From the NCBI RefSeq assembly GCF_003987015.1, contig NZ_PIPQ01000002.1, positions 248,001-312,000 on the forward strand: a stretch of DNA of 64,000 nt. The letters run 5' to 3'. Numbering within the stretch: the stretch's first letter is position 1; each line of letters starts with the position of its first letter. The notes below the pieces were generated by a model that was given only the letters and a program-made list of their open reading frames with translations, did no database searches and was not told the origin of the DNA. Shown here one piece after another: positions 56,476 through 64,000 of this stretch. The DNA comes from Aliidiomarina taiwanensis. Lineage in GTDB: Bacteria > Pseudomonadota > Gammaproteobacteria > Enterobacterales > Alteromonadaceae. Made by a program: the position numbers and the translations under genes.

Positions 56476-56856
56476 GTGAAAAAACTTTGGGTATGGTTCA
56501 CATTATGCGCGCTCTTGCTGGCCCCCTTATCGGCGGGACAGGCCTTTAGCATGGACATGAACCAAGCCCATTCAGGCCACACCAGTCATTGTCCAATGCA
56601 TGGGAAAACAGCCGAGCCCATGGCCATGCAGCATGACTGCTGTGATGGGCAAACCATGCCCGCCAGCCTGTTTGACCTGTGTGAAAGCATGGACTGTGAA
56701 CAAAGCTGTACGCCTTGTTTTGCCACCAGTGTTGCCACGCTCGAAGGGCTTAGCTTTGCCGTACCGCTAGCTCTTGCCGGCGCACTATCTCCTTATCAAT
56801 TCTCGTTGCAAGTGGTAGCGCCTTCGCTACACACACCACCGCCAAACGCAACCTAA
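56476..56856 (+). CDS. Exported Cys/His/Met-rich small protein, CopL-like
   Basis: A 126-aa protein with a signal peptide (about residues 1-23). The mature part is rich in metal ligands: MDMNQAHSGHTSHCPMHG, MAMQHDCCDG and LCESMDCEQSCTPC. A second hydrophobic stretch (about 88-105) and a proline-rich end follow. It resembles the CopL/DUF2946 group of small proteins found in front of copper and silver efflux genes. It begins with GTG at 56476 with no strong ribosome site. It could act as a periplasmic metal-binding protein or as a leader gene; direct function is unknown. cusB-like starts 77 bases downstream. Confidence 0.65.
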   Translation: MKKLWVWFTLCALLLAPLSAGQAFSMDMNQAHSGHTSHCPMHGKTAEPMAMQHDCCDGQTMPASLFDLCESMDCEQSCTPCFATSVATLEGLSFAVPLALAGALSPYQFSLQVVAPSLHTPPPNAT

Positions 56857-56933: not shown

Positions 56934-58709
56934 ATGGCGACCCTTGTGCGTTTTCTTTTCGTTTTAAGTATTTCTTTGTTTGTTTTAACTGGCTGTGGTG
57001 AAACCCGCACACAGACGGCCCTTGCTGAGCAGGTGGAAAGGGCCAGTGTGAATGAATATACCTGCTCCATGCACCCTTCGGTGCGAACCACCGACCCAAA
57101 TGCCCGCTGCCCCATTTGTGGCATGGACCTGATACCGGTGCAAACCAGTGTGGCCACTGACAGCCATGACCTTGAAGTGCAACTAGACTTAAGCCAACGT
57201 GGCAAAGCACTTGCAGATGTGGGCACTACACCGGTGCAATTACGAAACCTGAGCAAAGTGCTTACAGCCGTAGGCAAAGTGACTTGGAATAGCCGCACCA
57301 TGCGTACCCTGTCGGCCTGGACCGATGGCCGTTTAGACACCTTGTATATCAATGCGGTGGGCGACCAGGTGACCAAAGGGCAAGCAGTGGCGCAGCTATA
57401 TAGCCCGGAATTAATTACCGCTCAGCAAGAATACTTAGACGCCTTGCGACAAACACAGCAGGTAGCCGATAAACCAACGCTTTCTGAGTCGGCGCAGCGT
57501 ATTTTGCAAGCGGCCGAGCGCCGTTTGGCGTTGCTCGGTGTACCAACAAGTCATATTCAGGCATTGGCACAGCAGCCGCACGTAAGCACGCATATAGATA
57601 TCCAGTCCCCTTTGGCGGGCGTTGTGACAGAAACCTTTGTCCGTGAAGGCCAGTATGTAAAAACCGGAGAGCCTATTGCGACAGTCGCTGACCCCAGTGT
57701 TATGTGGGTGGTATTGGATGTGTTTCAGCACGACTTACAATGGGTGCATACGGGCCAGCAGGTTCGCTTACAGCTGCCTCACCAAAGTGAACCTGTGGTA
57801 GCGAACGTGGTGGAGGTCTTGCCTGAACTGAATGGTCAGCAAATTGGTCAGGTGCGGGTTGAGTTTGATGCCCGTGACATGTCTGTTCGACCGGGTAGCT
57901 TTGTGACCGCCGAAATAGCTGTGGTAGAAGATGAACAGACCCTAGCTGTTCCACACAGTGCCGTACTTTTCACCGGGCCACGTTCTTTAGTGTATGTGGC
58001 AGACCCTGACCAGCCAGGGGTGTTTGCTCAGCGCCAAGTGGTGTTAGGCGCACGCTTTGACGACTATTACCAAGTGGTAGAAGGGCTTGCAGAAGGGGAG
58101 TTCGTGGTGAACAAAGGTAACTTCCGCATTGACAGTGAGCTACAACTGCAAGGGAACGAAAGCATGATGTCGCAAACAGCGGCGGGCTCCGCTCAACATG
58201 ACCATAGCCTGCATAAACAGGACCAACACGCGGAGCATGTAATGCACGCCATGGACATGCCTGCCATGGACCAGACGGTTATGCTTGACCATGAAGCGGC
58301 CCACATTTTTCCACCTTACTTTGCTATGTGGGAGGCGCTGAAAAGTGATCAGCTCGACGCTTGGCATCAGGCTGCCGCAGACTTTTTTGCCGCGGTTGAG
58401 ACGGTTGAATGGCCAACGGAGCTTGCGGCTATTCAAGCGGACTTGTTGTACGCTCGTGAGCACTTACATCATGTTTCAGACATTGCACAAGCACGGGATC
58501 AGTTCTTTATCCACTCAAAAGGCATGATCAAACTTGCTCGTATGGGCGTGCATGAGGGAGAGGTGTACCGTGCTCATTGCCCGATGGCGCGAGCAAACCA
58601 AGGAGCCGACTGGCTGCAACCAACCAACGAATTACTCAATCCTTATTACGGTTCTTCCATGCTCCGTTGTGGCAGCGTGGAAGAACACTTAGGAGGTCAC
58701 ACACAATGA
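56934..58709 (+). CDS. cusB: CusB-like RND efflux adaptor with N-terminal metal-binding and C-terminal DUF3347-like domains
   Basis: A 591-aa periplasmic membrane-fusion protein, longer than E. coli CusB (about 407). Parts in order: lipoprotein signal ending VLTGC (Cys21); a heavy-metal-binding module YTCSMHP..CPICGMDLIPV (Cys44, Met46, His47, Cys59, Cys62, Met64); barrel-sandwich and helical hairpin with GQAVAQLYSPELITAQQEYLDAL; then a His/Met-rich linker (about 415-450, HDHSLHKQDQHAEHVMHAM). Last, a C-terminal DUF3347-like helical domain (about 455-585) with HFHH-type ligands replaced by REHLHHV and HCPMA. It links metal capture to the pump encoded next (TGA overlaps cusA ATG). Metal identity (Cu(I)/Ag(I)) is inferred. 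Confidence 0.88.
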   Translation: MATLVRFLFVLSISLFVLTGCGETRTQTALAEQVERASVNEYTCSMHPSVRTTDPNARCPICGMDLIPVQTSVATDSHDLEVQLDLSQRGKALADVGTTPVQLRNLSKVLTAVGKVTWNSRTMRTLSAWTDGRLDTLYINAVGDQVTKGQAVAQLYSPELITAQQEYLDALRQTQQVADKPTLSESAQRILQAAERRLALLGVPTSHIQALAQQPHVSTHIDIQSPLAGVVTETFVREGQYVKTGEPIATVADPSVMWVVLDVFQHDLQWVHTGQQVRLQLPHQSEPVVANVVEVLPELNGQQIGQVRVEFDARDMSVRPGSFVTAEIAVVEDEQTLAVPHSAVLFTGPRSLVYVADPDQPGVFAQRQVVLGARFDDYYQVVEGLAEGEFVVNKGNFRIDSELQLQGNESMMSQTAAGSAQHDHSLHKQDQHAEHVMHAMDMPAMDQTVMLDHEAAHIFPPYFAMWEALKSDQLDAWHQAAADFFAAVETVEWPTELAAIQADLLYAREHLHHVSDIAQARDQFFIHSKGMIKLARMGVHEGEVYRAHCPMARANQGADWLQPTNELLNPYYGSSMLRCGSVEEHLGGHTQ

Positions 58710-61700
58710 TCAGTTGGTTGTTACGCCACCCATTTTTGGCGGTGGCCGCAGTCACTCTTGTGATAGCCGGTGGGCTTGTGACGACACCTTTCCAGTCACC
58801 AGAAGGGCTGCCCAGTTCTCCTGTGGCGGTGGACGCCTTACCCAACTTAGGTGAAAACCAGCAAATTGTGTTTACCGAATGGCCTGGGCGCTCACCGCAA
58901 GACGTGGACGACCAGGTTAGTTATCCCTTGAGTTTGGCTTTAATGGGGGTGCCAGGCGTACGCGATGTGCGCACCTTGTCCATGTTTGGCTTTTCCAGTA
59001 TCGCCGTTATTTTCGACGATGGCGTCGACTTTTATTGGTCACGCTCGCGCTTGTTGGAAAAGCTCAGCGCGCTGCCAGCGGGCACCTTACCCGCGGGTGT
59101 GCAGCCAACCCTGGGTCCCGATGCAACAGGTTTAGGCCAAGTCTATTGGTACACCTTAGAAGGGCGTGACCGAACGGGGGCTCCCGTAGGTGGTTGGTCT
59201 TTAGAGGAAGTTCGCAGTGTTCAAGACTGGTTGGTGTCCTACGCACTGCTCGGTGTTTCTGGAGTCACGGAAGTGGCTTCTGTGGGTGGCTTCGTGAAAG
59301 AGTACCAAATAGACGTAGACGCCAATGCACTGCGCCTTTACCAAGTGACCTTGGCCGAAATTGTACAAGCGGTGGCCAGCGCAAACTTAGACATAGGTGC
59401 ACGAACGACTGAGATTAACCGAGCGGAATACTTAGTGCGGGGGGTTGGCTTCCTTCAGTCTACCACGGACATTGAACAAGCAGTGGTGGCGTACCGAGGA
59501 GAGCAAACGCCAGTGCGTGTTGCCGATCTGGCAAAAGTTAGTATAGGCCCAGCAACGCGCCGTGGGGCACTGGATGTAGACGGAGTGGAAGCCGTGGGCG
59601 GCGTGGTGACCATTCGCGAAGGGGCCAACGCGCTGGACGTGATTGAGCGGGTGCAAAAGAAAATAGAACAGCTAGCCCCTAGCTTGCCTCGTAAGGCCGT
59701 GATTGACTGGTCCCGTGTCGAGCAGGGGCAGGTAGAAACCTTTGCTCAGCAACAAGGTCTGCCTTCTTGGCAAGCTGGCGCACCGGTGGACATGGCGGCA
59801 ACGGCAAATGAAGCTTGGCGACAGTGGTTAGCACAGCACCCAGTGGAGCTATGGCCTGCATGGTTAACGGAAAGCCAGCTTACCCTTGTGCCTTTCTACG
59901 ACCGCTCGGTGCTGATTGACGAAACCCTAAGCACATTAAGTCAAACCTTGTACCAGCAAATTTTGGTGACCGCAGCCATTATTCTGTTGCTGCTAGTGCG
60001 GTTGCGGGCGGCTGTGGTGGTTGTGGTGATGCTGCCGTTAACCGTGTTAATGACATTTATTGCCATGCGTTTGCTGCACATTGAAGCCAATATTGTGGCC
60101 ATTGCGGGCATCGCAATCGCCATAGGAACCATAGTGGACATGGCCATTATTATGACCGACAACGTTATGCGCAAGCGCGCGGCACACCCTGATTGGTCCA
60201 GCTTTGAGCAGGTCAAACAAGGCTGTCAGGAGGTGGCTCCTGCGGTGGTCACAGCTATTAGCACCACGGTCATTAGTTTCCTTCCGGTATTCGCTTTAAC
60301 GGGAGCTGAAGGCAAATTATTTTCGCCTTTGGCTTACACCAAAACCTTGGTGCTACTGTGCTCTGTGGTATTAGCTTTGGTTGTTTTGCCCGTATTACTA
60401 AAGTTGGTGCTAAACCCACGGTTGAATGCATGGTCTGAAAGCATAGCTCGCTTTCGATCAGCCCGGCGCAGCTTGTTTATTGGTTTGCTCCTGCTGGTGG
60501 TATGGGCATTAAGTCAAGCTTGGATGCCACTTGGCCCGAACAGTGCGTTTAAGAACCTGCTTTTTGTCGGGCTTATCTTCGCTGTAGTCGCCAGTGGTGT
60601 ATGGCTTTTATTGCATTATTATCGACGGATACTGGCGTGGCTCTTGCGCTATAAAAGCGCAGCTATGTTAGTACCTTTGGTGCTCGTGGTGGTGGCATTA
60701 ATTATTGTGCCGCGCTTGGGCCGAGAGTTTATGCCTGCACTCGACGAAGGCACGTTTTTATATATGCCAACCACCATGCCCCACGCCTCCATAGGCGAGG
60801 TGCTAGAAGTACTGAGCGAACAGGACAAAGCGATTCGCGCGATTCCAGAAGTAGATCGCGTGGTGGGCAAGCTGGGCCGCGCAGAAACGGCACTAGACCC
60901 TGCCCCCGTGTCTATGATTGAAACCATTATTCAATATAAACCAGAGTACGGTGTGAATGCCGACGGTGAGCGAGTTCGCCAGTGGCGAGACCATATTCAG
61001 TCGCCAGATGACATCTGGCAGGAAATTGTGGCTGCAGCGCAGGTGTTGGGAGTGACCTCTGCGCCTAAGTTACAGCCTATCGAAACCCGTCAAATCATGC
61101 TGCAAACAGGCATGCGTGCCAGCATGGGGATTAAGGTGCAGGGACCGGACCTAGCCAGCATGGAACAAAGTGTGATAGCCATTGAAGAGCTGGTGCGCAC
61201 ATCCCCTGTGGTTAGCCCTGGCTCGGTGAATGGCGAGCGTATTGTTGGGCAGCCTTATTTAGAAATTCACTTGAAACGCGATCAGCTGGCCCGTTATGGC
61301 TTACAAATTAATGATGTGCAACACACCATTAGCACGGCCATAGGGGGCGTGGAAGCAACAAAAACCGTGACCGGGCGAGAGCGTTACAGTGTGCGGGTGC
61401 GTTACCAACGTGAACAGAGGGACAGTATAGAAGCGATGGAGCAGGTGTTGTTAGCAACGCCCGCAGGGCAATATATTCCACTGCATTATGTAGCGGACAT
61501 TGAATATGCCCGTGGACCGCAAATGATCCGCTCGGAAAACACCTTCTTAACGGCCTATGTAACCTTTGGTGCAAAACCTGGGATGGCCGATGTAGATGTG
61601 GTGGAGTCGGTTCAGGCTCTGCTGACTTCCGCCCTTGCCGAAGGGCAATTGCAATTACCAGAAGGTGTGCAATATAGCTTTGCTGGCAGCTACCAACAGC

Positions 61701-62314
61701 AACAGCGTGCTAGCGCTACGTTAACCTGGGTTCTCCCTTTGGCCTTGCTGCTTATTTTCGCTGTGCTGTATGTGCAGTTTAAACAGCTGTCTACGGCACT
61801 TATGGTGTTTAGTGGCATTGCAGTAGCATGGTCCGGTGGCTTTATTCTACTGTACTTGTACGGCCAGTCATGGTTTATGAATTGGAGTATTCCATGGCTG
61901 ATGGAGGGGGTAACTTTCCAGTCGGTGTTCCAAGTAGACACAGTGCACCTGAGTATTGCTGTTTGGGTGGGTTTTCTTGCCCTGTTTGGTATTGCTGTAG
62001 ATGACGGTGTGATTATGGCCAGTTATCTCAAACAGCGCTTTGATCAACACGTTGAGCCTACGCGGGAAGCCATTCATCAGGCGGTGATTGAGGCAGGACA
62101 AAAGCGGGTTCGACCTTGCTTAATGACCAGTGCGACCACCATTATTGCGTTATTACCTGTGCTATCAGCTTCTGGCCGCGGTGCTGATATTATGTTGCCT
62201 ATGGCAATTCCTACCGTAGGTGGGTTATTGTGTGTAGGATTTAGCATGTTTTTAGTACCCGTGTTATGGAGTTGGCGCGAAGAGCGACGAATAAAAAAGG
62301 CAGAAACAGCATAA
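58706..62314 (+). CDS. cusA: CusA-like heavy-metal efflux RND permease, long form
   Basis: A 1202-aa inner-membrane proton antiporter of the HME-RND class; E. coli CusA is 1047 aa. Family hallmarks: FTEWPGRSPQDVDDQVSYPL near the N-terminus, MPTTMPHASIGE, and the TM4 proton relay VAIAGIAIAIGTIVDMAIIM. C-terminal GFLALFGIAVDDGVIMASYL is the TM10-11 match. Extra length comes from about 70 residues before TM2 (DWSRVEQGQVETFAQQQGLP region), two additional hydrophobic helices between the halves (FIGLLLLVVWAL; LLFVGLIFAVVASGVWLLL), and an insertion in the C-terminal helices. ATG at 58706 overlaps the cusB stop; an upstream frame extension to 58577 lies inside cusB. No cusC or cusF is adjacent. Confidence 0.9.
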   Translation: MISWLLRHPFLAVAAVTLVIAGGLVTTPFQSPEGLPSSPVAVDALPNLGENQQIVFTEWPGRSPQDVDDQVSYPLSLALMGVPGVRDVRTLSMFGFSSIAVIFDDGVDFYWSRSRLLEKLSALPAGTLPAGVQPTLGPDATGLGQVYWYTLEGRDRTGAPVGGWSLEEVRSVQDWLVSYALLGVSGVTEVASVGGFVKEYQIDVDANALRLYQVTLAEIVQAVASANLDIGARTTEINRAEYLVRGVGFLQSTTDIEQAVVAYRGEQTPVRVADLAKVSIGPATRRGALDVDGVEAVGGVVTIREGANALDVIERVQKKIEQLAPSLPRKAVIDWSRVEQGQVETFAQQQGLPSWQAGAPVDMAATANEAWRQWLAQHPVELWPAWLTESQLTLVPFYDRSVLIDETLSTLSQTLYQQILVTAAIILLLLVRLRAAVVVVVMLPLTVLMTFIAMRLLHIEANIVAIAGIAIAIGTIVDMAIIMTDNVMRKRAAHPDWSSFEQVKQGCQEVAPAVVTAISTTVISFLPVFALTGAEGKLFSPLAYTKTLVLLCSVVLALVVLPVLLKLVLNPRLNAWSESIARFRSARRSLFIGLLLLVVWALSQAWMPLGPNSAFKNLLFVGLIFAVVASGVWLLLHYYRRILAWLLRYKSAAMLVPLVLVVVALIIVPRLGREFMPALDEGTFLYMPTTMPHASIGEVLEVLSEQDKAIRAIPEVDRVVGKLGRAETALDPAPVSMIETIIQYKPEYGVNADGERVRQWRDHIQSPDDIWQEIVAAAQVLGVTSAPKLQPIETRQIMLQTGMRASMGIKVQGPDLASMEQSVIAIEELVRTSPVVSPGSVNGERIVGQPYLEIHLKRDQLARYGLQINDVQHTISTAIGGVEATKTVTGRERYSVRVRYQREQRDSIEAMEQVLLATPAGQYIPLHYVADIEYARGPQMIRSENTFLTAYVTFGAKPGMADVDVVESVQALLTSALAEGQLQLPEGVQYSFAGSYQQQQRASATLTWVLPLALLLIFAVLYVQFKQLSTALMVFSGIAVAWSGGFILLYLYGQSWFMNWSIPWLMEGVTFQSVFQVDTVHLSIAVWVGFLALFGIAVDDGVIMASYLKQRFDQHVEPTREAIHQAVIEAGQKRVRPCLMTSATTIIALLPVLSASGRGADIMLPMAIPTVGGLLCVGFSMFLVPVLWSWREERRIKKAETA

Positions 62315-62809: not shown

Positions 62810-63363
62810 AGCGACTTGCCCTAGTCTTGAGTTGTGGGGTCCTGCTAGCGGCCTGCCAAGCAGATGAGCCAGCGCCGCTTAAAGTGTTAGATGCGCCAGA
62901 AGCTGTGGCGAAACTGGAAGATTTTCAAACCAGCGCTTGGCGTGGTTGTAATCAAACGATGCAGCAGTCGGTACGGCCCGACGAAATGCTCGATGGTACA
63001 GCCGGGTTACCTTTCTGGGAATGCAGCGGGGTGTTTGAGAACTCCTACCCCTATGAGTTTGCTTTAGTATTGAACCCGCAAAACAAGCAGCAGGTATTGT
63101 TTACCCAGCTTGAATTTCGTCGTGGCCACCAAGACTCTTTTAATGCCCTGTTGCGCTACTTTTTACGCCTGCAAGGGGTGCAAAACGAACAACAGCGCCT
63201 CGACATTCGTTCGCAAGTGACCAGTGTGATTGCCTCGAACCCGCGTCGGCGTGAATTTACGCCCATCATGTTTTTACCCGATGGGCGACAAATTGAAATG
63301 GCGCACAACTATCCCAAGTCTGCGTTTACGACTCTGCGGGTTCGGAATCAGACGGCGGACTAG
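62800..63363 (+). CDS. Hypothetical lipoprotein
   Basis: A 187-aa protein I do not recognise. The signal peptide ends in the lipobox GVLLAAC (Cys19). The mature part is mixed alpha/beta without obvious motifs; two cysteines (GCNQTM, WECSG) could form a disulfide. ATG at 62800 is favoured by GGAG 8 bases upstream; a GTG at 62794 is in frame. It overlaps ogt by 10 bases, and its last 38 bases overlap the convergent RND gene. Confidence 0.75.
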   Translation: MAIKRLALVLSCGVLLAACQADEPAPLKVLDAPEAVAKLEDFQTSAWRGCNQTMQQSVRPDEMLDGTAGLPFWECSGVFENSYPYEFALVLNPQNKQQVLFTQLEFRRGHQDSFNALLRYFLRLQGVQNEQQRLDIRSQVTSVIASNPRRREFTPIMFLPDGRQIEMAHNYPKSAFTTLRVRNQTAD

Positions 63364-64000
63364 TTGTTGGTTTGCCAATAGGTAACACCAAGCTGTACAT
63401 AACGGGCACCACAATGAGTGTGAGCAAGGTGGCAAAGCCAAGTCCGAACATAATGGTTACTGCCATACTGGCAAAAAACTCGTCAAATAAAAGCGGGATC
63501 ATACCAAGGATGGTGGTAAGCGCCGCCATCGTCACTGGACGTACCCGCTTTACGGAGGCATCCGTAAGGGCGGTATAACCTGTCTTGCCCGCGTCTTCTT
63601 CTGTTTTAATTTGCTCTAGCAGCACAATACCGTTTTTAATAAGCATACCGGACAAACTTAAAATACCCAGTAACGCCATAAAACTAAAGGCTTGCTGAGT
63701 CAGCAGTAAACCAAAGCTTACACCCACAATAGAAAGGGGCACTGTGGTCCAAATAACGGCTGCTTTACGGGCCGAGCTAAACAGCAACACCGTAATAATA
63801 AACATAATTAAATAGCCAATTGGAATGGAGCTAAACACAGCGGCTTTCGCTTTACTCGACGCTTCGTGTTCACCCCCCCAAGACAGGGTATAACCTTTAG
63901 GCAAGGGCATGGCTTCAAGAGGCCCGCGCACTTGGCTGAAAATATCCGCCGGCGTGGCGTCATCTAAAGGATCGGGGTCTGCCATGACAGTCATGGTGCG
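63326..64000 (-). CDS. RND efflux permease, C-terminal part (gene cut by window edge)
   Basis: The frame is open to the right edge, giving the last 224 residues of a HAE-1/AcrB-like RND pump. Seen: RTMTVMADPDP then GYTLSWGGEHEASSKAKAAVF (the porter-to-membrane junction) and helices 8-12 with the conserved MALLGILSLSGMLIKNGIVLLEQ, and RVRPVTMAALTTILGMIPLL. The tail is short and Pro/Ser-rich. It differs from the cusA product nearby (GILSLSGMLIKN versus a GVDDGV-type helix), so it is a separate, probably drug- or solvent-type pump. Its 5' part lies beyond 64000. Confidence 0.92.
   Translation of the reverse strand, partial: RTMTVMADPDPLDDATPADIFSQVRGPLEAMPLPKGYTLSWGGEHEASSKAKAAVFSSIPIGYLIMFIITVLLFSSARKAAVIWTTVPLSIVGVSFGLLLTQQAFSFMALLGILSLSGMLIKNGIVLLEQIKTEEDAGKTGYTALTDASVKRVRPVTMAALTTILGMIPLLFDEFFASMAVTIMFGLGFATLLTLIVVPVMYSLVLPIGKPTTSPPSDSEPAES

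Follow-up and report, generated by a model that had tools for sequence, protein, structure and literature searches.

Among metal pumps of the heavy-metal efflux (HME) type within the resistance-nodulation-division (RND) proteins, subtype HME4 (CusA/SilA) is marked, in CusA of Escherichia coli, by a triad of Cu(I)-binding methionines (M573, M623 and M672) together with a helper glutamate, E625. Three pairs of membrane methionines in CusA (410-501, 403-486 and 391-1009) have been proposed to hand metal over from the cytosol to this triad, and one mutation in this network of methionines is stated to be enough to stop transport (PMC8092243; here and below, papers are cited for excerpts of their text). 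The family is described as one of periplasmic exporters, and crossing of the inner membrane has been seen in vitro (PMC8277102). Here we describe a gene for a long CusA-like permease in a stretch of 64,000 nucleotides from Aliidiomarina taiwanensis (contig NZ_PIPQ01000002.1, positions 248,001 to 312,000 of the forward strand), which is referred to as the window and whose numbering is used throughout. Its product belongs to a widespread clade that is sister to CusA/SilA and whose membrane part has been rebuilt.

The gene and its translation signal are located as follows.

58691 to 58696, plus strand: AGGAGG, from which translation of the permease is served as ribosome-binding site
58706 to 62314, plus strand: long CusA-like HME-RND permease, 1202 aa (open frame, TIGR00914, AlphaFold2 model, structure match)

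The ATG of this 1202-residue open frame lies 9 bases 3' of AGGAGG and shares ATGA with the stop of the preceding cusB-like gene; because of this spacing and overlap, the start was favoured over that of a mechanically listed frame of 1245 codons. The permease scored 778.9 bits against the TIGR00914 profile (cut-off 701.45), and is by this curated profile a member of the CusA/CzcA family of heavy-metal efflux RND proteins. It exceeds E. coli CusA (1047 aa) by 155 aa. A sequence-only reading of the window had described an oversized CusA-like pump of 1202 aa with two added hydrophobic helices and further inserts, which was confirmed by the open frame, alignment, structural model and hydropathy.

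Relatives were found with peptide patterns taken from the window protein, and the best 80 of 167 confirmed relatives were used; for both reasons this sample leans toward the window sequence. All 80 are long, and a one-off oversized gene is therefore ruled out. Counts over 81 long sequences comprise these and the window protein, while the 31 short CusA/SilA types are CusA, SilA of plasmid pMOL30 and 29 sequences from the order, the last clipped by locus ends. In a FastTree tree of 117 sequences, the 81 long proteins formed one group (support 1.0) and the 31 short ones another (0.999), and the two together were separated from CzcA, NimA and the window genome's own CzcA-like pump (support 1.0). 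The long pumps are, in this tree, a well-supported clade that is sister to CusA/SilA and stands beside rather than inside it, as judged with few representatives of other HME subfamilies. Left out beforehand were the window genome's own RND loci L002, L003, L005, L006, and L007, for which no open reading frame (ORF) was extracted. The window protein clusters with those of Aliidiomarina, Arsukibacterium and Alishewanella (support 1.0).

From a hand alignment, the sequence-only reading had further held that one substrate methionine (in QIMLQTG) is kept, that two others are changed, at ARYGLQINDV and LLATPAGQ, and that the metal handled, or its route, may differ from Cu(I)/Ag(I). When the long relatives were aligned against E. 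coli CusA, two MAFFT methods agreed on the triad positions.

60764 to 60766, plus strand: M687 (YMPTT), equivalent to CusA M573 of the binding triad; Met in 80/80 long relatives
60914 to 60922, plus strand: M737 (SMIET) and E739, equivalent to CusA M623 and E625 of the binding site; each in 80/80 long relatives
61097 to 61099, plus strand: M798 (QIMLQTG), equivalent to CusA M672 of the binding triad; Met in 80/80 long relatives

The HME4 triad and its glutamate are all present in the window protein, and the methionine of QIMLQTG is indeed a substrate methionine. The other two sites align with CusA M738 and M792, both outside the triad and absent from the binding-site and relay methionines named in the excerpts of PMC8092243 and PMC3637150; Leu stands at the M738 position in 28/29 short relatives of CusA type. 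With M687, M737 and M798 all aligned, loss of substrate methionines is ruled out. A proper alignment had been named in advance as something that could overturn the argument, and since it places three methionines in the site, the argument falls.

The same M-M-E-M set was found in all 29 short relatives fetched from the order, whereas the four positions read Q/I/D/E in CzcA and S/A/D/E in NimA of pMOL30. A metal other than Cu(I)/Ag(I) is unsupported, because the proper alignment yields the CusA/SilA pattern, unlike that of CzcA or NimA. As the M-M-E-M site is conserved and the operon content agrees, Cu(I)/Ag(I) is, on sequence grounds, the most likely substrate.

Unlike the binding site, the membrane methionines differ from those of the CusA/SilA types.

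60095 to 60097, plus strand: V464, equivalent to CusA M391, relay residue lost; Val in 77/80 long relatives
60131 to 60133, plus strand: I476, equivalent to CusA M403, relay residue lost here; Met in 52/80 and Ile in 22/80 long relatives
60353 to 60355, plus strand: L550, equivalent to CusA M486, relay residue lost; Leu in 69/80 long relatives
60398 to 60400, plus strand: L565, equivalent to CusA M501, relay residue lost; Ala in 67/80 and Leu in 7/80 long relatives
62201 to 62203, plus strand: M1166 in transmembrane helix (TM) 12, clade-specific; Met in 100% of the long sequences that are not gapped at this position, 0/31 short

At the pairs 410-501, 403-486 and 391-1009 the window protein reads M/L, I/L and V/M. 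No complete pair was present in 71 of the 81 long sequences, the window protein included, one was present in 10, and no long sequence had more than one; all three were kept in each of the 31 short CusA/SilA types. The suggestion that the route may differ is thus plausible, through broken TM methionine pairs, a reason that the sequence-only reading did not give. One further pair, M271-M755, was dropped as a clade feature, position 755 not being Met in 28/29 short relatives nor in SilA; M271 itself is Met in 27/29 short order relatives versus about 1% of the long clade.

The AlphaFold2 model covered residues 1-1200 and was built from an alignment of the window protein with 67 of the 80 relatives (mean predicted local distance difference test 84.7; predicted template modelling score 0.81). 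Its best match in the PDB was CusA (3ne5_A; Z 49.9, 1010 residues aligned, root-mean-square deviation (rmsd) 2.0 Å, 38% identity), followed by ZneA (4k0e_A; Z 45.6, 971 aligned, rmsd 2.3, 30% identity), with multidrug RND pumps trailing at Z 40.8 and below. The model has the RND fold with two large periplasmic loops, and it contains the following additions.

59693 to 59875, plus strand: 61-aa insert before TM2, residues 330-390 (alignment)
60455 to 60649, plus strand: extra membrane hairpin between TM6 and TM7, residues 584-648 (AlphaFold2 helices, hydropathy)
60521 to 60535, plus strand: hairpin loop W606-x-P608-x-G610, its three named residues identical in 81/81 long sequences
61865 to 61942, plus strand: insert between TM9 and TM10, residues 1054-1079, with GQSWFMN motif (alignment)

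In the 12-TM RND pattern, TM6 is joined to TM7 without further membrane helices; the window protein is predicted to depart from it. The AlphaFold2 model places two extra helices here (584-606 and 614-648), and hydropathy likewise gives two segments. The TM6-TM7 segment is 98 residues long in the window protein and 92 to 149 in its long relatives, compared with 48 in CusA and in 29/29 short relatives. Hydropathy detected three hydrophobic segments in this interval in 56 of the 80 long relatives, two in 17, four in 6 and one in 1, and none in the 29 short relatives. The two extra helices and the large size are a trait of the whole clade, not a peculiarity of the window gene. N617 is also invariant in long sequences, yet it is common to CusA in the alignment.

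Since TM6 ends in the cytoplasm by RND topology, the W-x-P-x-G loop should lie on the periplasmic side, and the TM9-TM10 and pre-TM2 inserts probably lie on the same side. The larger inserts relative to CusA fall at residues 330-390, within 570-636, at 748-757 and at 1054-1079, with smaller ones besides. The segment before TM2 (PN2-TM2) measures 75 residues in the window protein, 23 in the median long relative (clade range 23 to 75) and 14 in CusA. In the TM9-TM10 insert, F1057 is Phe in 80/81 long sequences.

Other residues are fixed in the long clade, some of them near the triad in sequence.

60776 to 60784, plus strand: M691 and H693, soft-ligand residues specific to the clade, near the triad in sequence; 79/81 and 75/81 long, 0/31 short
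61112 to 61126, plus strand: M803 and M807, soft-ligand residues specific to the clade, just past the M798 helix; 77/81 and 73/81 long, 0/31 short
62000 to 62005, plus strand: D1099-D1100 in TM10, D1099 being equivalent to CusA E939 of the proton relay; each Asp in 76/81 long sequences

M691, H693, M803 and M807 occur all together in 63/81 long and 0/31 short sequences. With M1166 they make five gained residues, four of them at most nine residues away from a methionine of the triad. In the set of 62 columns fixed specifically in the clade, Met, His or Cys made up 4/9 near the triad versus 1/53 elsewhere (Fisher p 0.001, computed post hoc, after the positions had been seen and with the nine-residue neighbourhood chosen by us).

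In the HME4 proton relay (D405, E939 and K984 in CusA), the aspartate is kept as D478, D1099 stands for E939 and C1138 for K984. The last position is Ala in 45/80 and Cys in 30/80 long relatives; it is also variable in short pumps, with Lys in 3/29 short order relatives and Val or Ile in 26/29. Because those 26 also lack Lys, the loss of K984 was rejected as a special feature and given no weight. K546 (CusA K482) is Lys in 80/80 long relatives, and T1141 (CusA T987) is Thr in 79/80. The TM4 motif of HME1/HME2 pumps (CzcA, CnrA, NccA) is DFG-x3-DGA-x3-VEN (PMC3637150), while residues 472-486 of the window protein read AIG-DMA-TDN.

By record title, the best 80 relatives belong to Bacteroidota, Planctomycetota, Zixibacteria and others, with a few Gammaproteobacteria. 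A search of the genus found the long form in 17/17 genomes, and in 15 the match to a single frame came in two pieces; in genome G306 one stop codon was counted in the second piece. Nine further genus loci carry the same long signature. In a sample of 295 genomes of the order, with two candidates scored per genome, a full-length match was found in the window genome only, the next best scoring 341 bits. This distribution would fit a lateral transfer through which the genus and some of its neighbours acquired the gene. A second sample was drawn by tblastn on plasmids, from whose listed matches 6 of 7 long genes (H7, a partial one, being omitted) and 3 of many short ones were taken. The triad was present in 6/6 long and 3/3 short plasmid-borne genes, and the short ones bear the CusA signature. 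The W/P/G loop, M1166 and the Asp pair were found in all six long genes, none of which has a complete Met pair; all four gained residues near the triad were present in 5/6, the Prevotella gene reading M, H, L, I. In the literature, as covered by titles and abstract openings and with subscription papers mostly outside the scope, no description of a long or 14-helix CusA subfamily was recognised.

Two side observations concern length and copy number. Genome G299 of the genus carries, beside a near full-length match elsewhere, a second long-pump match in several pieces with an 820-residue frame (C23:268050-270455). Short CusA-type pumps from two genomes of the order (loci L095 and L114) have a 249-residue C-terminal extension with hydrophobic stretches by eye, a different kind of oversizing.

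The permease gene is preceded by genes on the same strand.

56476 to 56856, plus strand: small Cys/His/Met-rich protein, 126 aa, GTG start (ORF list; secreted-looking by eye)
56934 to 58709, plus strand: CusB-like periplasmic adaptor, 591 aa (HlyD_D23, E 7.2e-55, CusB-type matches); its stop overlaps the permease start
57057 to 57140, plus strand: heavy metal binding domain (HMBD) in the N-terminal part of the adaptor, residues 42-69 (PF19335)
58305 to 58541, plus strand: DUF3347 in the C-terminal part of the adaptor, residues 458-536 (PF11827; 26.3 bits, barely above the cut-off of 25.5)

The adaptor is the best HlyD_D23 match of the window genome. The 126-aa ORF is likely the first gene of the operon and has a counterpart in the nearest relative (locus L009). 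Family scans of its product gave no credible match, the one hit being a chance-level match to a biotin ligase model (E 0.035); by eye, its CC and PPP motifs recall HYC_CC_PP and CopL proteins. A second RND permease gene lies on the minus strand at 63326-64000, beyond the downstream genes, and is clipped by the window end.

Elsewhere in the window genome, matches of outer-membrane channel (OEP) type were found on other contigs, the best being a 451-residue frame on C26, and a weak one, below the cut-off, on C12. The Cu-type P1B ATPase model gave three matches above its cut-off, and multicopper oxidase was matched once; since 13/14 control genomes also have such ATPases above the cut-off, those of the window genome add little support. 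On contig C27 (64469-68705), multicopper oxidase and Cu-type P1B ATPase matches lie ~2 kb apart, away from the operon. In the group to which the window genome belongs, a Cus system without a channel gene of its own has been noticed before, Idiomarina loihiensis being listed among genomes without CusC in a repertoire with a CusABC core (PMC3548706).

In many Bacteroidota loci a small Cys-rich ORF is followed by the long pump, then an ORF of ~410-500 residues and an adaptor; in the records of Bernardetia, Pontibacter and Parabacteroides, which are annotated, a TolC family gene directly follows the pump. The HYC_CC_PP model (NF047658) was matched by 39 small ORFs out of 57 (that of the window and 56 of the 57 picked by rule from the 80 loci, an adaptor fragment at L034 being omitted), the window's 126-aa protein not being among them; a literature search for the term HYC_CC_PP found no paper. 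The window adaptor had a match somewhere in 72/80 loci and E. coli CusB in 68/80, some loci ending near the pump. The strict form of an HMBD pattern was found in 7 loci, and a looser form was then used. On a Bernardetia plasmid (L138, 29.8 kb) the genes encode a multicopper oxidase, a heavy-metal-associated protein, the long pump, TolC, a copper P-type ATPase and an adaptor, and on a Pontibacter plasmid the pump, TolC and adaptor are found with DUF3347, heavy-metal-associated and SCO genes. The Parabacteroides locus holds the pump, TolC and adaptor, with no further copper genes. DUF3347, which forms the adaptor C-terminus in the window, is a separate gene directly after the adaptor in Pontibacter (L139).

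We consider it probable, with moderate confidence, that the window pump is the proton-driven inner-membrane component of a CusA-like Cu(I)/Ag(I) exporter that is loaded from the periplasm. Sequence and model point this way through the fold, the M-M-E-M site, the TM4 aspartate, the HMBD-containing adaptor in the operon, the loss of the TM pairs and the gain of Met and His. The small Cys/His/Met-rich protein would gather Cu(I) together with the adaptor HMBD and hand it to a Met/His-enriched cleft around M687/M737/M798, from which it would be released as the porter domain closes, with proton drive through D478 and D1099/D1100. The metal may then be led via the adaptor to an outer-membrane channel (TolC-like) encoded elsewhere in the genome, while cytosolic copper would be brought to the periplasm by P-type ATPases. 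Together with the inserts, the hairpin and its W-x-P-x-G loop could give the pump an additional surface at its periplasmic base, to which a partner or metal donor might bind. Loading from the periplasm only is suggested less strongly, since cytoplasmic metal is reported to be taken also by HME pumps that lack these methionines (PMC8092243).

Several observations weigh against this picture. According to PMC8092243, metal from the cytoplasm is also acquired by ZneA and CzcA; CzcA retains only one of the six relay methionines. The placing of the gained Met and His residues at the metal is suggested by their distance along the sequence, and Q790, near the triad, represents a clade loss of a Met found in 94% of short pumps. 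No outer-membrane channel gene was found among the neighbouring ORFs of the operon, and with CusAB of E. coli, TolC reportedly does not stand in for CusC (PMC8277102). The window protein retains M483 and M1163, and 52/80 long relatives have Met at the M403-equivalent position; with M1166 newly fixed in TM12, a rerouted membrane path is therefore conceivable. Finally, short-pump methionines outside the relay have also been lost (at L79, L243, T284, Q790, Q999 and T1170), so the relay loss may belong to a general drift of Met.

That the pump is a Cu(I)/Ag(I) exporter in which cytosolic metal continues to cross the membrane by such a rerouted path, through M483, M1163, M1166 and in many relatives the M403-equivalent, appears unlikely. 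M1166 is fixed in the long clade and absent from 31/31 short pumps, a Met equivalent to M1163 is present in 96%, and one pair survives in 10/81 long sequences; however, 71/81 are without a complete pair, and TM6 (534-568) has no column with Met in at least 85% of the long clade, so that nothing conserved replaces M486/M501.

About equally improbable, in our estimate, is that the helices, inserts and relay losses arose by drift in the lineage and change neither route nor metal, leaving the pump functionally CusA. The invariance of W606, P608 and G610 in 81/81 sequences argues against drift, although insert length does vary in the clade (TM6-TM7 92 to 149 and PN2-TM2 23 to 75 residues). The porter domain and triad are CusA-like and Met has been lost outside the relay too, as drift would have it, but relay loss touches all 81 long sequences, none with more than one pair, and in CusA a single mutation in the methionine network kills transport (PMC8092243).

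Export of another metal or metal complex, such as a divalent ion, is very unlikely: the altered proton relay (D1099-D1100 for E939, Cys for K984) and the new His and Met near the site in sequence would suit it, but M-M-E-M is invariant where the divalent pumps CzcA and NimA read otherwise, copper genes adjoin the pump in two annotated plasmid loci, and the HME1/HME2 motif (PMC3637150) is replaced here.

Returning to the periplasmically loaded Cu(I)/Ag(I) exporter, a broader proposal can be made for the clade, tentative and rather doubtful as a whole: the long pumps may be a major separate Cu(I)/Ag(I) lineage that abandoned the cytosolic Met route in favour of periplasm-only loading through a Met/His cleft, the hairpin docking a neighbouring Cys-rich protein (of HYC_CC_PP type in Bacteroidota) that replaced CusF as donor. 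The long clade offers a natural test of where CusA-type pumps pick up metal, and the choice between a cytosolic Met ladder and a periplasmic sweep bears on the whole model of envelope metal export. If the long pumps export Cu(I), the membrane ladder would be dispensable for periplasmic export, and the two functions could be separated by comparing natural proteins. The analysis also corrects a tempting but most likely wrong guess of a changed metal.

Compared with E. coli CusA (HME4; PDB 3ne5, 3k07), the window pump shares the RND fold, the M573/M623/E625/M672 site, the TM4 Asp, K482 (K546), T987 (T1141) and a CusB-type adaptor. It differs in its additional 155 aa, two helices between TM6 and TM7, three broken TM Met pairs, Asp for E939 and Cys for K984; moreover, E. 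coli has cusRS and cusCF beside cusBA, and none of these is found in the window operon. SilA of pMOL30 (Cupriavidus metallidurans), named here from its position next to SilD (the record reads 'efflux RND transporter permease subunit'), has the same M-M-E-M site, but at 1056 aa it keeps all six TM relay methionines. CzcA and NimA of pMOL30 and ZneA, the divalent HME-RND pumps, resemble the window pump as RND heavy-metal pumps; in CzcA and NimA the TM methionine relay is absent except for M391, and, unlike the window pump, they have a Q/I/D/E or S/A/D/E site and fall outside the group of long and CusA/SilA pumps in the tree; ZneA was compared by structure match. The long plasmid pumps of Bernardetia, Pontibacter and Parabacteroides, recorded as 'efflux RND transporter permease subunit', share with the window pump the length class, the triad, the gained Met/His, W-x-P-x-G, the Asp pair and the lack of a complete TM pair. 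Gene order differs: on the Bacteroidota plasmids the permease precedes TolC and the adaptor, whereas in the window the order is small gene, adaptor and permease, with no TolC gene.

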